A model generated the notes under the pieces. The model ran no database searches. It saw only the letters and a program-made list of their open reading frames with translations, and had not been told where the DNA came from. Made by a program: the position numbers and the translations under genes. A stretch of DNA of 64,000 bases from Arenimonas caeni (GTDB taxonomy: Bacteria > Pseudomonadota > Gammaproteobacteria > Xanthomonadales > Xanthomonadaceae), in assembly GCF_003024235.1 (NCBI RefSeq), contig NZ_KZ679084.1, positions 124,001 through 188,000 on the forward strand. The letters are read 5' to 3'. Below, one piece after another: positions 10,283 through 18,102 of the stretch (the first letter of the stretch is position 1; every line of letters starts with the position of its first letter).

Positions 10283-12172
10283 ATGAACACCCGCTACAAC
10301 GCCGCCGACATCGAAGTCCTCTCGGGCCTGGACCCGGTCAAGCGCCGCCCGGGCATGTACACCGACACCACCCGGCCCAACCACCTGGCCCAGGAAGTGA
10401 TCGACAACTCGGTGGACGAGGCCCTCGGCGGGCACGCGAAGCTGGTGGAGGTGACGGTCCACGCCGACGGCAGCGTGGAGGTGTCCGACGACGGCCGCGG
10501 CATGCCGGTGGACGTGCACCCCGAGGAGGGCATCCCGGGCGTCGAGCTGATCCTCACCCGCCTGCATGCCGGCGGCAAGTTCAGCGGCAAGAACTACACC
10601 TTCTCCGGCGGCCTGCACGGCGTGGGCGTGAGCGTGGTGAACGCGCTTTCGAAGAAGGTCGAGGTGTTCATCAGGCGCGAGGGCCAGGAACACCGCATGG
10701 AGTTCCGCGACGGCGACCGGGCCTCGTCCCTGGAGGTCGTGGGCACCGTCGGCAAGCGCAACACCGGCACCCGCCTGCGCTTCTGGCCGGACCCGAAGTA
10801 TTTCGACAGCCCGAAGATCGCCCTGCGGCCGCTGCGGCACCTGCTGCGCGCCAAGGCCGTGCTCTGCCCGGGCCTGACCGTGCGCCTGCACGACGCCAGC
10901 ACCGGCGAGAGCCACGAGTGGTGCTACCAGGACGGCCTGCGCGACTACCTGCTGGGCGAACTGCAGGGCCGCGAGCTGCTGCCGGCCGAGCTGTTCGTCG
11001 GCCACCTGTCCAAGGACACCGAGGTGGCCGACTGGGCCGTGGCCTGGGTGCCCGAGGGCGAGCTGGTGCAGGAAAGCTACGTCAACCTCATCCCCACCGC
11101 CCAGCACGGCACCCACGTGAACGGCCTGCGCAGCGGCTTCACCGACGCGCTGCGCGAGTTCTGCGACTTCCGCAACCTGCTGCCGCGCGGCGTGAAGCTC
11201 GCCCCCGAGGACGTCTGGGACCGGGTCAGCTTCGTGCTGAGCCTGAAGATGACCGACCCGCAGTTCAGCGGCCAGACCAAGGAACGCCTGAGCTCGCGCC
11301 AGGCCGCGGCCTTCGTCGAGGGCGCGGCGCACGACGCGTTTTCACTTTGGCTCAACCAGCACGTTGAGCTGGGCACCCAGATCGCCCAGCTGGCCATCGA
11401 CCGCGCCGCCGCCCGGCTCAAGTCCGAGAAGCAGGTGGTGCGCAAGAAGGTCACCCAGGGACCGGCCCTGCCCGGCAAGCTGGCCGACTGCATCAGCCAG
11501 GACCTGGGCCGCACCGAGCTGTTCCTGGTCGAGGGCGACTCGGCCGGCGGCAGCGCCAAGCAGGCCCGCGACAAGGATTTCCAGGCCATCCTGCCGCTGC
11601 GCGGCAAGATCCTGAATACCTGGGAGGTCGAATCCGGCGGCGTGCTGGCCTCGAACGAGGTGCACGACCTGGCCGTGGCCATCGGCTGCGACCCCGGTGT
11701 GCAGGACATCGGCGGCCTGCGCTACGGGAAAGTGATCATCCTGGCCGACGCCGATTCCGACGGCCTGCACATCGCCACCCTGCTCTCGGCCCTGTTCCTG
11801 CGCCACTTCCCGGCCCTGGTGCGGGCTGGCCACGTGTTCGTGGCCATGCCGCCGCTTTTCCGCGTGGACGTGGGCAAGCAGGTGTTCTACGCCCTGGACG
11901 AGGAAGAGAAGCGCCTGCTGCTCGACCGGATCGAGCGCGAGAAGATCCGCGGCCAGGTCAGCGTCACCCGCTTCAAGGGCCTGGGCGAGATGAACCCGGC
12001 CCAGTTGCGCGAGTCCACCATCCACCCCGACACCCGCCGCCTGGTTCAGCTGACGGTGGACGACGCCGAGGCCACCCGCGGCCTGATGGACCTGCTGCTG
12101 GCCAAGAAGCGCGCCGGCGACCGCAAGGCCTGGCTGGAAGCCAAGGGCGACCTGGCTTCGCTCGAGGTCTGA
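10283..12172 (+). CDS. parE: DNA topoisomerase IV subunit B
   Basis: ATPase subunit of the chromosome-decatenating topoisomerase IV. In 629 residues it shows the GHKL ATP-binding motifs ([37 protein letters not shown]), the transducer domain, and the TOPRIM domain with [12 protein letters not shown] and [10 protein letters not shown]. It ends with the [12 protein letters not shown] block. The length (about 630, not 800) and sequence favour ParE over GyrB. Monocistronic as seen here: globin is divergent upstream, and a roughly 395-base regulatory gap follows. A possible -10 (TATCCT, 10231-10236) lies 46 bases upstream of the ATG. Confidence 0.97.
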
Positions 12173-12181
12173 GCCCCGACC

Positions 12182-12202
12182 GGCCCCGCCCCGGCGGGGG
12201 CC
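12182..12202 (+). terminator. Candidate terminator hairpin after parE
   Basis: GGCCCC at 12182-12187 pairs with GGGGCC at 12197-12202, with further partial pairing inside, ten bases after the parE stop. There is no T run, so the call is weak. It would isolate parE from the fibre operon, which has its own promoter. Confidence 0.35.
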
Positions 12203-12277
12203 GCGTTGCCCCGGCGGGAGACCGCGACGGCCGGTGACCGGCGTCGCCAACCCATGAAACTGTGACCGGCCGCCCGG

Positions 12278-12302
12278 AAATGTGACGCATCGCGTCACAT
12301 TT
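12278..12302. promoter_or_regulatory. 25-bp perfect palindrome (operator candidate)
   Basis: Arms AAATGTGACGC (12278-12288) and GCGTCACATTT (12292-12302) are exact reverse complements around ATC. It contains TGTGA and TCACA half-sites, but 9 bases apart instead of the 6 of a CRP site, so it may bind a different dimer. It lies about 160-185 bases upstream of the likely transcription start, a usual distance for a sigma-54 enhancer. A third TGTGA half-site lies exactly 20 bases upstream at 12261. Confidence 0.6.
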
Positions 12303-12388
12303 GTCCGCTGCTGCGCCCCCGAATCCTGCCGTTCGTCGGCCGGATGGCCGGCGTCTGCCCCGGCTTGCGTGTCGGCCGGCCCCCGAAT

Positions 12389-12408
12389 ACTGTGAACCTG
12401 TTCACATT
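12389..12408. promoter_or_regulatory. CRP/Clp-type binding site
   Basis: TGTGA (12391-12395), six bases, then TCACA (12402-12406): an exact match to the CRP consensus core with the correct spacing and an AT-leaning 3' flank. Its centre is about 66 bases upstream of the start predicted from the sigma-54 promoter. In Lysobacterales the CRP homologue Clp recognises the same core. Clp itself is not in this window, so the regulator is inferred. Confidence 0.65.
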
Positions 12409-12437
12409 TGTCGCCGGATCATGACGCCGTGAACGGG

Positions 12438-12455
12438 TTGGCACGCTTCCTGCAT
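12438..12455 (+). promoter_or_regulatory. Sigma-54 (RpoN) type -24/-12 promoter
   Basis: TTGGCACG at 12438-12445, four bases, then CTGCAT. The invariant GG (12440-12441) and GC (12452-12453) are separated by exactly 10 bases, and the only departure from TTGGCACG-N4-TTGCA is one T to C at the -12 element. Predicted start is near 12465, giving a leader of about 100 bases to the ATG at 12568. Such a promoter needs an enhancer-binding activator; the upstream palindrome is a candidate site for it. Confidence 0.7.
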
Positions 12456-12567
12456 ACAGCCCACCGAGCCCGCAGTTTGCGAGCCCCCGGTCGGTGATCC
12501 GGCCCGGAATGTCGACCCAACAATCCCAGTCGTTTCACCTTCAGCAAACCCAAAGGAAACCAACACC

Positions 12568-13137
12568 ATGAACACTGTCCGTAGCATCCGAGGCCTCGCC
12601 CTCACCGGCGTGGCGGCCCTCGGCCTGATCGCGATGACCCCGGCCCTGGCCGAATCCGACTTCGTCACCGGCGGCGGCGCGCTCTCCGCGAATGCCGACC
12701 TGGACTTCGAGGTCATCATCCCGCGCTTCATCAGCTTCCGCGTGGGCAGCACCGGCGGCACCGAGGACCTGGTGCAGTTCAACGTGGCCGCGGCCGACGT
12801 CGGCGTCAGCGGCCCGGTTTCGCGCTCCAATGCCTCGGGCGCGCCGATCAACGTGGCCCTTCGCAGCAATGTCGGCAACGTGAACCTGTCGGCGGCCGGC
12901 TCGGGCGCGGGCCTTGTCAGCGGCGGCAACACGATTGCCTGGTCGCAGATCAATGGCACGAGCGACAATGCGGCCAACCTGCCGGTCCCGGCGATCGGCG
13001 CGGCGGCCACTCCGCTCACCGCCACCAACGGCGTGATCAACGAGTCCGCCAACTGGACCTTCACCTACGCCAACAGCGCGCTCGTCAGCGCCGGTACCTA
13101 TACCGGCACCGTGACCTACACCGCCTCGGCCCCGTAA
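12568..13137 (+). CDS. Secreted beta-rich subunit 1 (probable major fibre subunit)
   Basis: A 189-residue exported protein with a clear Sec signal peptide (about 1-28, cut after MTPALA). The mature part is Gly/Ala/Asn/Ser-rich, has no Cys, and looks all-beta, with short alternating strands. It ends in an amphipathic strand, AGTYTGTVTYTASAP, of the kind seen at the C-terminus of pilin-like beta-sandwich subunits. AAAGGAAA sits about 10 bases before the ATG. It is the first gene behind the sigma-54 promoter and is followed by a strong stem-loop, both fitting a major subunit made in excess. I cannot assign it to a named pilin family; SCPU-type pilins are the nearest analogy. Confidence 0.7.
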   Translation: MNTVRSIRGLALTGVAALGLIAMTPALAESDFVTGGGALSANADLDFEVIIPRFISFRVGSTGGTEDLVQFNVAAADVGVSGPVSRSNASGAPINVALRSNVGNVNLSAAGSGAGLVSGGNTIAWSQINGTSDNAANLPVPAIGAAATPLTATNGVINESANWTFTYANSALVSAGTYTGTVTYTASAP

Positions 13138-13156
13138 GGCCGGCTGTCGCTGGAGC

Positions 13157-13185
13157 CCGGAACCGGCCCCTCGGGCCGGTTCCGG
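13157..13185 (+). promoter_or_regulatory. 13-bp mRNA stem-loop between subunit genes
   Basis: Perfect 13-base arms (13157-13169 and 13173-13185) around the triloop CTC, 20 bases after the subunit 1 stop and 17 bases before the next ATG. Most of the stem is GC and no T run follows. In known fimbrial operons, a stem-loop after the major pilin gene protects the upstream mRNA or reduces read-through, raising major over minor subunit. That role is inferred here. Confidence 0.65.
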
Positions 13186-13202
13186 CGCAACGGAATCCAC
13201 TG

Positions 13203-13865
13203 ATGCCCTTCGCCGCCTCCCACCGGTTCGCCATGCTCGTTGCGCTCGCGCTGCTTCCGCAGCTGGCGTCTGCGTACGACGTGAACATCGCCGCCCGCGA
13301 TCCGCGCGCGGTGTACCTGCGAGTGGGCGACGGCGTCATGATCAACGGCCCTTACAGCCGTACCCCATCGATCTTCAATCCCACCTTCCCGACGCCGGGC
13401 GTCGGCGGGAACGTGCCCCTCGTCCGGGCGACCGTCCCGGCAAACCAGGTGGGAAACAACACGTCGATCCTGATGACAACCCCCGGGAACCCGCGCACGA
13501 CCAGCGACTGGGACAACTTCCAGTTCTGCAATTCCGGCCAGGTCTATGTCGGCGGCTTCTACCGGGCCACGAACGCAAGCACCGGCAACACAGCGCGGCT
13601 GACCTACAGCGCCCCGGCGTTCCTGACGAACGAAAACAACCAGACCATACCCATTTCGCAGATCAGCTGGACCACCAGCGGAAATGGCGACGTCGGCGCA
13701 CAGCCCTTCGGTGCGGGCACCTTCAGCGCCGGCAGCACCCAGCTGACCACCATCTCGCGCAACCAGTGGCGCGAGACCTGCATGACGTTCCGCTATGCCA
13801 ACCAGAACCTGGTTGCCTCGGGAACCTATACCGCCACCGTCACCTTTACGCTCTCCCAGCCATGA
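13203..13865 (+). CDS. Secreted beta-rich subunit 2 (probable minor or tip subunit)
   Basis: A 220-residue exported protein. The signal peptide spans about 1-24 (LPQLASA then YDVN). The mature part is beta-rich with two Cys (FQFCNSG and RETCMTF), probably one disulfide, and has Tyr- and Asn-rich stretches. It ends SGTYTATVTFTLSQP, closely matching the terminal strand of subunit 1, so the two are paralogous at least there. It lies 65 bases downstream of subunit 1, after the stem-loop. The larger size and disulfide suit a minor, tip or adhesin role, but no binding domain is recognisable. Confidence 0.65.
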   Translation: MPFAASHRFAMLVALALLPQLASAYDVNIAARDPRAVYLRVGDGVMINGPYSRTPSIFNPTFPTPGVGGNVPLVRATVPANQVGNNTSILMTTPGNPRTTSDWDNFQFCNSGQVYVGGFYRATNASTGNTARLTYSAPAFLTNENNQTIPISQISWTTSGNGDVGAQPFGAGTFSAGSTQLTTISRNQWRETCMTFRYANQNLVASGTYTATVTFTLSQP

Positions 13866-14335
13866 ACCGCAATCTCTGGGGCATGCTCCTGCTATCGGTC
13901 GCCCTCCTCACCGCGGCAAAAGGCGCCGGCGCCCAGGCCATTCGCGTGGACGACAGCCAGAGCCAGGTGCTCGGCAGCACGCTCCGGCTCAAATGGGACC
14001 AGGCCGCCCCTCGGGACGGTCGCGCAGGCACATTGTCCGGATCAATCACCGTGCTGGTGCGTCTTGATGTCCGCGCCTGGCGCGGCCGGAACGCACGCAT
14101 CTACCAGACGTTGCCCGCCCAGGCGGGGGCGGACGTGCTTGCGCATTGGACCAGCCAGGGCGTCCTGCTGCCGGGACAGATGCGAAGCGGTGAGCGCGCT
14201 CTGGTGTATGCGGGCCCCATTACTTCCGACTTCCTTCAAGACACGTTCCGCCTGACGATCCGGGCGAACGGGGACACGCTCGAACGAGCGGAGCGCCTTG
14301 ACTTCGGCTTCGAGATCGAACCGGAGGCCATGTGA
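13862..14335 (+). CDS. Third secreted beta-rich protein of the fibre operon
   Basis: A 157-residue protein with a signal peptide (about 1-24, ending AAKGAGA). The mature 130 residues are predicted mostly beta, with no Cys: SGSITVLVRLDVRAWRGR, then ALVYAGPI, DTFRLTIRANGD and LDFGFEIEPEAM. Start ATG 13862 overlaps the subunit 2 stop (ATGA); longer in-frame starts lie inside subunit 2 and lack a signal peptide. I do not recognise the family. It could be a minor subunit, anchor or assembly factor. Base composition here is noticeably less GC-rich than in flanking housekeeping genes. Confidence 0.65.
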   Translation: MNRNLWGMLLLSVALLTAAKGAGAQAIRVDDSQSQVLGSTLRLKWDQAAPRDGRAGTLSGSITVLVRLDVRAWRGRNARIYQTLPAQAGADVLAHWTSQGVLLPGQMRSGERALVYAGPITSDFLQDTFRLTIRANGDTLERAERLDFGFEIEPEAM

Positions 14336-15120
14336 TGAAGCGCGTTGATCTCCTGGCCGCAGTGGCTCTGCTGGCATCCATGACGGGTAATGCCTGGGCC
14401 CAAGGCTTCGATGCCCTGGTATTGCCGCCCAGGTTTGAAGACTCCGCCCGGCAAGGCAACGTCTATCGCAATGTCATCGAGATCCAGAGCGCTTCGCCCA
14501 GCCCCACGCGGTTCAACATCCGTACGGCCGACTGGGTGCTCGATGCCAACGGCGATGCCGTGTTCGACTACAAACTGGCCCCCGACAGCTGCCGCCCATG
14601 GGTCGGATTGGAGGCCACTGAAGCCTTGGTGGAGGCCAATGGTCGAAAGCGCCTTCGCTTTGAGGTTGCAGTTCCCGCGGATGCCCCGTCCGGCCAATGC
14701 CGATTCGCGATCATGGTCGAAGGCCAGCCCCAGACCACGGAAGCGGGCATGTCGGTCGCTGGCCGCATCGGCATCATTGTCTACCTGACGATCGGCGACG
14801 GCGCCGCCCGCCTCGCAATCACCGATATCCGCGTCGAATCAATCGAGGGCCGCGAGTTGCCGGTCGTGAGCGTCCGCAATGACGGCAATGCGCATGGCCG
14901 GCTCCAGGGGTTTGTTGCGGGCCTCGACGCCGAGGGACGTCGCTGGACCCTGATTCCCGTTTCACACCCCGTTCTCCCGGGAGTGACTCGCCAGATCCCG
15001 CTGGAACCAATCCCCGACGAAGATTCGGGTCCGGCTGCCCTCGCATTCCCGATTCAACTGCGCGGCCAACTCGACTGGGGTGGCCAGCGCATCCCGGTCG
15101 AGGGTACGGCCAACCGATGA
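14335..15120 (+). CDS. PapD-like periplasmic chaperone
   Basis: A 261-residue exported protein with the build of a two-domain immunoglobulin-like pilus chaperone. The signal peptide is about 1-22 (ending NAWA). Domain 1 has the conserved pattern LPPRFEDSARQGNVYRNVIE, then RFNIRTADWVLDANGD and RFEVAVPADAPSGQCRFAI. A second beta domain starts near residue 160 and runs to GQRIPVEGTANR. GGAGG at 14323-14327 is 7 bases before the ATG at 14335; a GTG three bases earlier is possible but too close to it. It lies between the subunits and the barrel gene, as chaperones do in chaperone-usher operons. Confident of fold class, less so of clade. Confidence 0.65.
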   Translation: MKRVDLLAAVALLASMTGNAWAQGFDALVLPPRFEDSARQGNVYRNVIEIQSASPSPTRFNIRTADWVLDANGDAVFDYKLAPDSCRPWVGLEATEALVEANGRKRLRFEVAVPADAPSGQCRFAIMVEGQPQTTEAGMSVAGRIGIIVYLTIGDGAARLAITDIRVESIEGRELPVVSVRNDGNAHGRLQGFVAGLDAEGRRWTLIPVSHPVLPGVTRQIPLEPIPDEDSGPAALAFPIQLRGQLDWGGQRIPVEGTANR

Positions 15121-17090
15121 GCCTGCCGCCCAATCGGCCGTTGGCGGCCGGAATCTCCCTCATCCTCCTTACCTGCGGCGTGGCATCCCAGGCGTTGGCA
15201 TGGGATGAGCCGCCGGAAGAGCCTGCCTACCAGGACCGCATCATCGACCCCGACAAGCTGGCGCCGTTGCCGCCGGATGACGATGAGCAGTTCGACGCCT
15301 CGGGCTTGCCACGCAGTTGGCGCCTGGAGGTCTTGACCAGCCAGATCAAACGTGGCGACGAAAAATTCAGCGAGTCGGGCTTCAGCTTCGGCGGACTTTG
15401 GGAAACCGCGGACTGGGGCAGCTTTTCGCTCGACGCTACCGCATTCCAGAGCGACCAAGGCCGCAACGGCGGCAGCCGCTGGATCGGCACCGCGACGATC
15501 TGGCAGCGAAACCTGCGCTTCGATGGTGGCTGGCGCGTCGACAACGGACTTGGCGTACTCAACACGCCCCTGACGCCACTGCAGCGCGACCAATACCGCT
15601 TCTTCCTCCCCAGCGCACCCTTCTCGGGTCTCGTGAGCCAGTGGGAGAACACGGAGGATGAAAGGCGATTCTTCGCTGGCTTCGGCCAGGCGGGCGTATT
15701 TTCCGGCGCCCGCGTGGTTGGTTTTGACCAGGCCGAGGGCCAGGTGGGAACGCTCGGCTCCCAGTGGCGGTGGTCACCCGACTGGACCGGCGCCCTTGCC
15801 GTGCTCGCCACGGATGGCAGGATCGTGCCCGACGAACTGGGGTCTGGCCAGTACCAGGATGGTCGAACCGAGGCAGCGGTCTTCAGCACGGGCTGGGCGG
15901 GAACCCAGGATGAAGCGAAACTCCACCTGCACTCCAGCCGTGGATACCTGGGCGACGCTTTTGGCGCCTGGACCGACATCGAATCCCGGCGTGGCCGCTA
16001 CACGTACAACTACGGAGCGTTCAGGCTCGAGCCCGGGCTGGCCTGGGGTGCCTTGCCCATCAACAACGACGCGCAGGGCCTGCACTTCCGCACCAACTAC
16101 CGGCATCCGCGATGGACTTGGTCGGTGGGCATCGACCAGATCCAGTCGGTAAGTGGGAACAGCTTCGAGGGCACCTACGCCAACGCATTCCTGCGCTACC
16201 AGGCACGAGCCAACCTCGGCGTGGGCGGCAGCCTGAACGTGCGCCGCTCCGAGACCGACACCGATTTTTCCACGCGCTGGTTCGCAGATCGCCGTGCCCG
16301 CTGGGGCATTACGCGGATCCAACTCGACCAGGCCCATACCAGCGAACGTGATGATTGGCAGATCACCCTCGACCAGGACCTGCCGATGCAAACCGGCTCG
16401 CGACTGACAGTATCGGGCAGCATTGCCGTCGAGGACCAGGACGGCGTTGGCAGGACCGACACGTTCACGCTGGCAGCGCTCGGAGGAATCGAGCTGACGG
16501 ATCGGATCAGCCTGGATGGCAACCTGCGCTGGATCAGGGGAAACGGCCCGAACGCCTACCGTGGCACCGATCTGAACCTGAGCCTGAATTGGCGACTGGC
16601 GAGCAACTGGTGGCTTACCGCCACTGCCTACAACAATCGCGGCGAGCAACGCTCGCCGTTCCAGCTCGACCCCTTGGCGCCACCGGATGTCTTCGTCGGG
16701 ATCCCGCGCGAGCGTTCGATCTTCCTCAGCCTGCGTTACCAGCGGCAGGCCGGATCCTCGGCCGTGGTGCTCGGAGGAATGCCCGGCACGGCGGCCGGCA
16801 ACATCAGGGGAAGCGTCTTCCTCGACGAGAACGGCGATGGAATCCGCTCGGCCGCGGAACTGCCTGCCGTGAACGTCACGGTCATCCTCGACGGCCGCTA
16901 CTCGGTTCGCACCGACAGCCAGGGCGAATTCGAGTTCCCGCGCGTCGCGGTCGGCGCGCACACCATCGAAGTGGTGCCCGACAACCTGCCGCTGCCCTGG
17001 TTCCTCGACGAGCAGGCCGACCGCCGCGCGGTCGAGGTGCAGGTGCGCGACACGGTCCGCGTCGACATCGGCGCGCGGAGGCAGCGATGA
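15117..17090 (+). CDS. Usher-like outer-membrane beta-barrel with C-terminal SdrD-B-like domain
   Basis: A 657-residue exported protein. The signal peptide is about 1-28 (ASQALA then WDEPPEE), followed by an acidic Pro-rich stretch (29-58). About 500 residues of alternating aromatic/polar beta strands follow, typical of an outer-membrane barrel (e.g. LSLNWRLASNWWLTATAYNN, then RSIFLSLRYQRQ). Residues about 560-657 form a separate domain beginning IRGSVFLDENGDGIRSAAEL, the Ca-binding-like SdrD-B or carboxypeptidase-regulatory signature. Its ATG overlaps the chaperone stop. It is shorter than classical ushers (about 800) and I see no standard usher motifs, so it is either a divergent CS1-like usher or a different pore. 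Its last 150 bases are much more GC-rich than the rest. Confidence 0.65.
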   Translation: MSLPPNRPLAAGISLILLTCGVASQALAWDEPPEEPAYQDRIIDPDKLAPLPPDDDEQFDASGLPRSWRLEVLTSQIKRGDEKFSESGFSFGGLWETADWGSFSLDATAFQSDQGRNGGSRWIGTATIWQRNLRFDGGWRVDNGLGVLNTPLTPLQRDQYRFFLPSAPFSGLVSQWENTEDERRFFAGFGQAGVFSGARVVGFDQAEGQVGTLGSQWRWSPDWTGALAVLATDGRIVPDELGSGQYQDGRTEAAVFSTGWAGTQDEAKLHLHSSRGYLGDAFGAWTDIESRRGRYTYNYGAFRLEPGLAWGALPINNDAQGLHFRTNYRHPRWTWSVGIDQIQSVSGNSFEGTYANAFLRYQARANLGVGGSLNVRRSETDTDFSTRWFADRRARWGITRIQLDQAHTSERDDWQITLDQDLPMQTGSRLTVSGSIAVEDQDGVGRTDTFTLAALGGIELTDRISLDGNLRWIRGNGPNAYRGTDLNLSLNWRLASNWWLTATAYNNRGEQRSPFQLDPLAPPDVFVGIPRERSIFLSLRYQRQAGSSAVVLGGMPGTAAGNIRGSVFLDENGDGIRSAAELPAVNVTVILDGRYSVRTDSQGEFEFPRVAVGAHTIEVVPDNLPLPWFLDEQADRRAVEVQVRDTVRVDIGARRQR

Positions 17091-17392
17091 ACCTGCGCAC
17101 CGCCCCGCGACCGAAGGGCATCGTGCTGCGGCTGATGGTGCTGGTCACCGCGGCCACGCTGGCGGTCTTCCTGCAGGCCGGCGCCGGCGCCTCGCAGGGC
17201 ACCGGGCAGCCCGAACCCGTTGAACGCAGCGTGCCCGACCGCGCCGGGGAAGCCACCGGTGCCTGCGGCGCGCCGGCCGAACCAGCGGCGGCGCTGAACC
17301 ACCCTGCCCTGTTGGCTGCCGCTCAGCCCAGCGCCGCTTCCAGCAGCCTGGCCAGCAGCGACTGCAGCCGCGACGCCAGCGCCGGCTCGTAG
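17087..17392 (+). CDS. Small membrane-anchored or secreted protein ending the fibre operon
   Basis: A 101-residue frame whose ATG overlaps the barrel stop (ATGA). A basic N-terminus precedes one hydrophobic segment (about 12-32, IVLRLMVLVTAATLAVFLQA), then a Gly/Pro/Ala/Ser-rich tail with two Cys. The last 70 bases run opposite to the 3' end of hutG, which is unusual and lowers confidence in the exact end. Coupling to the barrel gene and the signal-like start support a real gene, perhaps an assembly accessory. No family recognised. Confidence 0.5.
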   Translation: MNLRTAPRPKGIVLRLMVLVTAATLAVFLQAGAGASQGTGQPEPVERSVPDRAGEATGACGAPAEPAAALNHPALLAAAQPSAASSSLASSDCSRDASAGS

Positions 17393-18102
17393 CGCACCGC
17401 GGCCTCGTCCATGTAGCAGCACTGGGCGATCTCGAGCTGGATCGCCTCGACGCCCTGCGCCGGCTGGCCGTAGTGGCGCGTGATGTGGCCGCCCTTGAAG
17501 CGCCCGTTCGCCACCCAGGTGTAGTCGTCCTGCCCGGCCAGCACGGCCTCGAGCCGGGCCTGCGTGGCCGGCGCGCAGCTGGCGCCGGCGGCGGTGCCGA
17601 GGTTGAGGTCGGGCAGCCGGCCCTCGAACAGGAAAGGCACCACGCTGCGGATCGAATGCCCTTCCCAGAGCACGGCGCGGCCGTGGGCGGCGCGCAGGCG
17701 CGCCAGTTCGCCGGCCAGCGCGTCGTGGTAGGGGCGCCAGTAGCGCTGCACGCGCGCCTGCACCTCGTCGGGCGCCGGCGCCTGCCCGGGCAGGTAGATC
17801 GGCTCGCCGTCGAAGCCAGTGGCCGGGCACAGGCCGGTGGTGTTCTGGCCCGGATAAAGCGAAACATCGTCCGGCGGACGGTTGAGGTCGACCACGTAGC
17901 GCGAGTAGCGCGGCACCAGCACCGAGGCACCGGCCGCGCGCGCGAAGTCGTAGAGGCGGCTGACGAACCAGTCGGTGTCGGGAACGGCGCGGGCGGCGCC
18001 GGTGAGCCGCGCGGCGATGTCGTCGGGCAGCGCGGTGCCGTCGTGCGGCAGGCTCACCAGCAGCGGCAGCCGGCCCGTGTGCAGGGTGAAGACGTCAGGC
18101 AT
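17323..18102 (-). CDS. hutG: N-formylglutamate amidohydrolase
   Basis: Final step of one histidine-degradation route: hydrolyses N-formylglutamate to glutamate and formate. The 259-residue protein has the family blocks LLVSLPHDGTALPDD, DTDWFVSRLYDFA, SRYVVDLNRPPDD, LCPATGFDGEPIYLPG, and WEGHSIRSVVPFLFEGRLPD followed by NLGTAAGASC. The His and Asp positions expected of the Zn site are present. Its 3' end overlaps the tail of the small fibre-operon gene on the other strand. It sits 10 bases downstream of the DadA-like gene, probably one transcript. hutU is about 45 kb away; hutH and hutI are not in the window. Confidence 0.93.
   Translation of the reverse strand: MPDVFTLHTGRLPLLVSLPHDGTALPDDIAARLTGAARAVPDTDWFVSRLYDFARAAGASVLVPRYSRYVVDLNRPPDDVSLYPGQNTTGLCPATGFDGEPIYLPGQAPAPDEVQARVQRYWRPYHDALAGELARLRAAHGRAVLWEGHSIRSVVPFLFEGRLPDLNLGTAAGASCAPATQARLEAVLAGQDDYTWVANGRFKGGHITRHYGQPAQGVEAIQLEIAQCCYMDEAAVRYEPALASRLQSLLARLLEAALG

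Follow-up and report, generated by a model that had tools for sequence, protein, structure and literature searches.

Three classes of chaperone-usher pili are distinguished, classical, alternative and archaic, and in the archaic cupE operon the genes for a major pilin and two minor ones are followed by those for a chaperone, an usher and a tip adhesin (PMC10104325). For the WxL/WxLIP clusters of Firmicutes, PMC10599100 gives an AlphaFold2 prediction in which a hairpin strand of WxLIP, the WxL-interacting protein, inserts into a gap of the WxL protein and completes its sandwich; this insertion is taken here as functionally similar to donor-strand complementation. In a window of 64,000 nucleotides from Arenimonas caeni (GCF_003024235.1, contig NZ_KZ679084.1, positions 124,001 to 188,000, all positions below being those of the window), we analysed five plus-strand genes, g1 to g5 (12568-17090), which, judged by sequence comparison, are real and conserved. 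Our reading, to which we give roughly three chances in four, is that this operon encodes a divergent, minimal chaperone-usher pathway. It rests on profile, structural and gene-order evidence, namely the conserved five-gene unit, the resemblance of g4 and g5, by profile, to archaic-type chaperones and ushers respectively, and the pilin-like model of g1. The initial annotation had offered a divergent chaperone-usher clade as the first of two options, and all three kinds of evidence support it; no characterised clade was found that all the components match strongly, a result that would have spoken against it. The open-licence literature yielded no description of this clade, which, with search terms partly narrow or loose, is weak evidence of absence.

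The predicted chaperone and subunits

The g4 gene (14335-15120, plus strand) encodes a predicted periplasmic chaperone of 261 amino acids (aa) when translated from the ATG, with a GTG at 14332 as a possible alternative start. A profile of 108 g4 sequences was compared by hhalign with several protein sets after removal of signal peptides, located by eye or with a simple A-x-A rule. The best agreement was obtained with 12 archaic-type PapD_N chaperones (97.1%, P 5.9e-11, 225 columns; reversed control 0.4%). These 12 proteins were found by PF00345 at 30-87 bits and include two near-identical pairs; "archaic-type" is a label given here. In most of the operons fetched around such chaperones the subunits end like SCPU proteins, and for nine of the 12 chaperones the operon was fetched. 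All comparison sets are small, with the archaic-type ones drawn from one bacterial order. Ten plasmid-borne WxLIP proteins aligned with g4 at 89.7% (P 1.8e-6, 231 columns; 96.2% with signal peptides), 18 classical-like chaperones at 9.7% (reversed 3.2%) and seven E. coli PapD-type chaperones at 3.1%, and five random g4 subsamples gave 96.5-97.3% with the archaic-type set and 82.6-93.5% with WxLIP. Because the values are high for the archaic-type and WxLIP sets and low for the classical ones, we place g4, as a prediction from these profiles, in the PapD superfamily, nearest to the archaic-type set and between that set and WxLIP. The assignment is made through the profile link, a direct Pfam match being absent: at E <= 10 Pfam returned nothing for g4, nor for g1, g2, g3 or the small downstream gene g6, and NCBIfam had no match for g1-g5.

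The similarity to WxLIP invites another explanation, namely that the locus is a Gram-negative counterpart of the WxL system in which g4 would be a WxL-interacting protein that holds g1 and g2 on the barrel g5, forming a surface complex and no polymer. Apart from the 231-column alignment, this is consistent with a PDB profile search, in which the only matches of g4 were two EfmWxLIP1 sequences (E 2.5e-4 and 2.7e-4), with the detection of WxLIP_PGBD (PF06030) at E <= 1 in 13 of the 26 g4 family members (best 4.2e-5), and with the C-terminal YxxxVTYxxxxP of g1 and g2, reminiscent of the WxL end motif. However, PF06030 was not detected in the g4 of the window, and at E <= 0.1 WxLIP_PGBD was absent from the whole A. 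caeni genome. The alignment of g1 with small WxL proteins fell from 36.5% to 0.5% once signal peptides were removed, g1, g2 and g3 contain no W-x-L, and the partner proteins thus lack the two such motifs of the WxL proteins. Nor does g4 end in a membrane-helix-like stretch: its maximal 19-residue hydropathy is 0.67 in the last 60 residues, against C-terminal values of 2.2-3.6 in nine of the ten WxLIP proteins (the tenth, a short one, reaches 0.67). The five-gene unit moreover includes an outer-membrane barrel, unlike the WxL/WxLIP clusters, g4 is closer to the archaic-type chaperones, and the g1 model matches pilus entries. We regard a WxL-type surface complex as very unlikely. The assignment of g4 as mainly WxLIP was accordingly revised in favour of the higher-scoring archaic-type chaperones, and that of g1 and g2 as WxL domains at the sequence level was rejected, the 36.5% being due to signal peptides. 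As a separate observation, the plasmid record CP069367.1 (Klebsiella pneumoniae) encodes at 101986-102432 a segment with 59% identity to the WxLIP query from E. faecium, which is odd for a Gram-negative plasmid and could be contamination or transfer.

Upstream of g4 lie the genes of the beta-rich proteins predicted to be exported: g1 (12568-13137, plus strand, 189 aa, no Cys), the predicted major, pilin-like subunit; g2 (13203-13865, plus strand, 220 aa, two Cys), a second pilin-like subunit; and g3 (13862-14335, plus strand, 157 aa), proposed as a minor subunit from its position and for which Pfam, PDB profile and hhalign searches found no relative. The like terminal strand patterns that had first drawn attention to g1 and g2 (GTYTGTVTYT and GTYTATVTFT) are present, and the homology of the two proteins is clear (hhalign 99.9%, P 3.9e-33). 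SCPU (PF05229) was not matched by g1, g2 or their relatives, and profile comparison with it gave 1.0-1.5%. The AlphaFold2 model of g1 (predicted local distance difference test, pLDDT, 94.8) was searched against PDB with Foldseek, and 49 of the 50 matches listed were chaperone-usher pilus entries, with a best E of 1.0e-3 and none below 0.001.

Candidate donor strands were identified in both partners. In the N-terminal extension of g1, residues 39-51 (12682-12720, plus strand) are nearly alternating, with hydrophobic fractions in the g1 alignment of 0.77/0.09/0.94/0.13/0.97/0.03/1.00/0.00/0.99/0.04/0.97/0.54/0.98, and the monomer model assigns one strand residue within this stretch. In g4, the proposed strand at residues 137-153 (14743-14793, plus strand) is long, hydrophobic and partly alternating; the alternation of hydrophobic with other residues spans 137-147 and is interrupted at the invariant G143 and the nearly invariant R144, residues 147-151 are all hydrophobic, and the whole lies within the stretch aligned to EfmWxLIP1. 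The pilin-like g1 model and the strand patterns of g1 and g4, taken from a monomer model and alignments, would fit donor-strand exchange.

The usher-like barrel

The fifth gene, g5 (15117-17090, plus strand), encodes a 657-aa usher-like outer-membrane barrel with a C-terminal SdrB-like domain. It aligned with 16 archaic-type ushers at 94.6% (P 7.1e-8, 566 columns), while five other large barrels used as negative controls reached at most 4.3% and classical ushers 1.2%; the barrel part alone gave only 34.2% with the archaic-type ushers. Scanned singly, none of 68 g5 family members matched the usher family PF00577. The initial annotation had described the barrel as too short for a classical usher, free of usher motifs and accompanied by a first subunit without Cys, all of which holds.

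Ushers are built of an N-terminal domain, a 24-strand barrel, a plug and two C-terminal domains. In the AlphaFold2 model of g5, the mature protein begins with a tail of 37 residues containing a conserved Y.D..I (15201-15311, plus strand) where ushers have their N-terminal domain, and the barrel begins with a strand from mature residue 38. The barrel (15312-16751, plus strand; DSSP elements E38-51 to E504-517) has 26 strands and no inserted plug domain, so that the 24-strand barrel with plug that the initial annotation had named as support was not borne out. A loop conserved within the genus (R.QYRF.LPS; 15564-15617, plus strand) was located between strands 5 and 6 from the alignment and the model. 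The protein ends in a single beta-sandwich domain (16794-17087, plus strand) that scored 97.9% with SdrB-like metallophosphatase domains and 85.0% with archaic-type usher C-termini. This end has the B-repeat-like character and DxNxDG loop of SdrD B-like domains, and SdrD_B and CarboxypepD_reg were found at E <= 0.1 in all 68 family members. The predicted SdrD-B-like end is thus present, below Pfam cut-offs: four C-terminal families (CarboxypepD_reg, SdrD_B, BiPBP_C and CarbopepD_reg_2) were all sub-cut-off in the g5 of the window, where SdrD_B scored 20.2 bits against a curated cut-off of 29.7. Five open reading frames (ORFs) tested among distant barrel matches in and outside the genus were rejected as calcineurin-like phosphoesterases with only the SdrB-like domain in common.

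The departure of the g5 model from the usher build, together with its low Foldseek TM-scores, a VIA score that among the families listed by VIA is highest for MtrB, and subunits that match no pilin family by sequence, weighs against a chaperone-usher pathway. Our confidence was kept to the level given above because of these low TM-scores and because archaic ushers are known here by sequence and not by domain build. The structural scores would also be compatible with g5 being an ordinary large porin or a conduit-like barrel of the MtrB type, placed in an operon with secreted beta proteins and not acting as an assembly machine. Yet in the Foldseek search of the g5 model ranks 1-13 were all FimD or PapC, with the MtrB-type 6r2q_B at rank 14, no MtrB family match was found among the 68 g5 family members, and MtrB-type barrels have other operon partners. 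The full-length profile link to archaic-type ushers with its negative controls, and the fact that the barrel accompanies the PapD-superfamily chaperone in all 80 loci retrieved through the latter, likewise speak against a plain porin, which was not found as the initial annotation's contrary case and which we consider highly improbable.

Under the chaperone-usher reading, the exported g1, g2 and perhaps g3 would adopt, in the periplasm, immunoglobulin-like folds that are incomplete, and the chaperone g4 would lend them its long strand for completion. The g4-subunit complexes would be delivered to g5, a large plugless outer-membrane barrel that has a short tail at its N-terminus and a single C-terminal domain, where the N-terminal strand of the next subunit would displace the chaperone strand and the fibre would grow outwards. 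Export, donor-strand exchange and fibre formation are what we infer from the computed features, as is any adhesive role.

Conservation and surroundings of the unit

The initial annotation had counted six plus-strand genes with mostly 4-base overlaps. The genes and overlaps were found as described: g2/g3, g4/g5 and g5/g6 overlap by four bases and g3/g4 by one or four, with a gap of 65 bases between g1 and g2. The sixth gene did not stand as a member. A small ORF with a hydrophobic N-terminal stretch, g6 (17087-17392, plus strand, 101 aa) has homologues in only two of 12 same-genus loci, and for this reason we place it, on sequence grounds, outside the conserved unit. The ORF preceding g1 (10283-12172) resembles a topoisomerase subunit that we take to be of the ParE type, and its homologue occurs in the same locus in nine of the 12 same-genus loci. 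On the other side, a minus-strand ORF (17323-18102) overlaps g6 by 70 bases. A scan for promoters and terminators gave no promoter-like and two terminator-like sites, at or below shuffled controls, and was uninformative.

Strong g5 homologues were found in 12 of 26 same-genus genomes besides that of A. caeni, and a plasmid search with g5 gave no match. The g4 profile matched in 15 of 369 genomes at class level and 18 of 250 at order level (six strong, 12 weak), and a larger g4 profile matched in 10 of 398 at phylum level (three strong). A GTDB scan with g4, one genome per species, returned 176 confirmed relatives, and the best 80 of these, in loci found through g4, were used for counting. Going by their record titles, they belong to Arenimonas, Lysobacter, Pseudoxanthomonas, Vulcaniibacterium, Hydrogenophaga, Steroidobacteraceae and other, mostly beta- and gammaproteobacterial, metagenome-assembled genomes (MAGs). 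Environmental species with the cluster include Hydrogenophaga pseudoflava, Arenimonas donghaensis and Vulcaniibacterium thermophilum. Homologues of g3 and g5 were present in all 80 loci and all five genes in 70; in the ten loci without g1, the g4 ORF starts less than 1.8 kb from a contig end. The exact order g1-g2-g3-g4-g5, read by stop codon with matches below 40 bits excluded, was found in 67 of the 80. Two further loci have the same order behind a second, divergent cluster, and in one more g1 is doubled. Overlaps of 1-8 bases recur between g2 and g3 (62/76 pairs), g3 and g4 (37/80) and g4 and g5 (52/77). The five genes thus recur together in other genera and neighbourhoods, and since the flanking families vary between groups of loci, they form a unit. 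Hence a single operon combines pilin-type subunits, a chaperone and an outer-membrane barrel, as in the general chaperone-usher pathway.

In 23 of the 80 loci, 17 of them from Hydrogenophaga by title, the unit is followed, 49-306 bases downstream, by an extra gene for a secreted product of 153-180 aa (for example L122:10894-11418). Its product shares the N-terminal donor-like stretch with g1 and has a different, WPVQTDLTAL-like ending, and in a search of those 23, 18 matched the g1 profile at E <= 3e-4. It is possibly a tip, cap or anchor.

In 12 more distant class-level loci, the position of g5 varied: it lay collinearly behind the other genes in one locus (L074), ran convergent to them in seven (L075, L077-L079, L081-L083) and came first in four (L076, L080, L084, L085). 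The clusters L076, L080 and L085 are rearranged: the barrel gene leads, and the chaperone gene is followed by a g1-like one. No g3 was detected in L080 or L085, nor in L075, where the locus ends. Directly upstream of the first cluster, L143 (Hydrogenophaga borbori) and L151 (a Burkholderiaceae MAG) carry a divergent duplicate of all or most of it. In L086 (8614-10311) a g4-like chaperone (E 7.5e-20) has as its neighbour a 261-aa protein that looks secreted and ends in DVTYTIAIP; no g5 homologue was detected in this locus, and the two are possibly a chaperone-subunit pair without an usher. Elsewhere in the phylum, L201 (8865-9893, minus strand) and L202 (8714-9562, minus strand) hold solitary g4-like proteins, near which no gene for a subunit or a barrel is evident; both adjoin a similar plus-strand gene (L201 9481-10569, L202 9688-10407) that is tyrosine-phosphatase-like by eye.

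Placement among pilus classes and meaning

The order subunits-chaperone-usher is that of archaic pili such as Csu of Acinetobacter and CupE of Pseudomonas, and it is found in the 67 loci if g3 is assumed to be a subunit. The pilin-like model of g1 is a further likeness to these pili. The five genes correspond one by one to those of cupE (PMC10104325) provided that g3 is a minor subunit; the extra gene of the 23 loci then stands where the tip adhesin would be. The locus might then be an ordinary archaic, Csu/CupE-type system that drifted below the Pfam thresholds: g4 and g5 are both nearest to archaic-type sets, and the gene order is equal. Against this, PapD_N matches in 22 of the 81 genomes of the order pass the Pfam cut-off that g4 fails, and 12 of the 16 archaic-type usher ORFs measure 780-821 aa, the other four being longer still than these, compared with the 657 aa of g5. 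Compared with FimD and PapC, the g5 model lacks the N-terminal domain, the plug and the last C-terminal domain, and it carries an SdrB-like end. Furthermore, archaic-class subunits are SCPU proteins with a conserved disulphide, whereas the subunits here show no SCPU similarity and g1 has no Cys at all. A drifted archaic system therefore appears unlikely to us. To classical pili (FimC/FimD/FimA, PapD/PapC) the locus is similar in the fold-level matches of the g1 and g5 models, in contrast to the missing profile link of both g4 and g5. Since tests revealed neither the usher build nor the SCPU subunit feature, the best reading of the proposed chaperone-usher pathway is to file it in none of the classical, alternative and archaic classes. 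The alternatives weighed here overlap with this pathway, and our estimates for them do not sum to one.

A further step, which we put forward tentatively and at somewhat less than even odds, would make the locus a fourth chaperone-usher class, with a minimal usher devoid of the N-terminal recruiting domain, the plug and the second C-terminal domain, and would make g4 the missing link by which WxL/WxLIP clusters and chaperone-usher pili become branches of one donor-strand system. Recruiting and gating would in that case proceed by other means, with the conserved tail and the strand 5-6 loop as possible agents.

An usher lacking a plug and nearly all of the N-terminal domain would be a test of what in FimD and PapC is indispensable for recruitment, gating and strand exchange. 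Moreover, g4 has links to archaic-type chaperones and to WxLIP, two sets that miss each other when compared directly (1.2%), and its family therefore offers an evolutionary link, open to testing, from the pili of Gram-negative bacteria to the WxL surface complexes of Gram-positive ones. In the A. caeni genome neither a PF00577 usher nor a PF00345 chaperone was detected at E <= 0.001, and the five-gene unit may therefore, as far as these searches indicate, be its only chaperone-usher system. Genomes without a Pfam-recognised usher, that of A. caeni included, may still make such pili.

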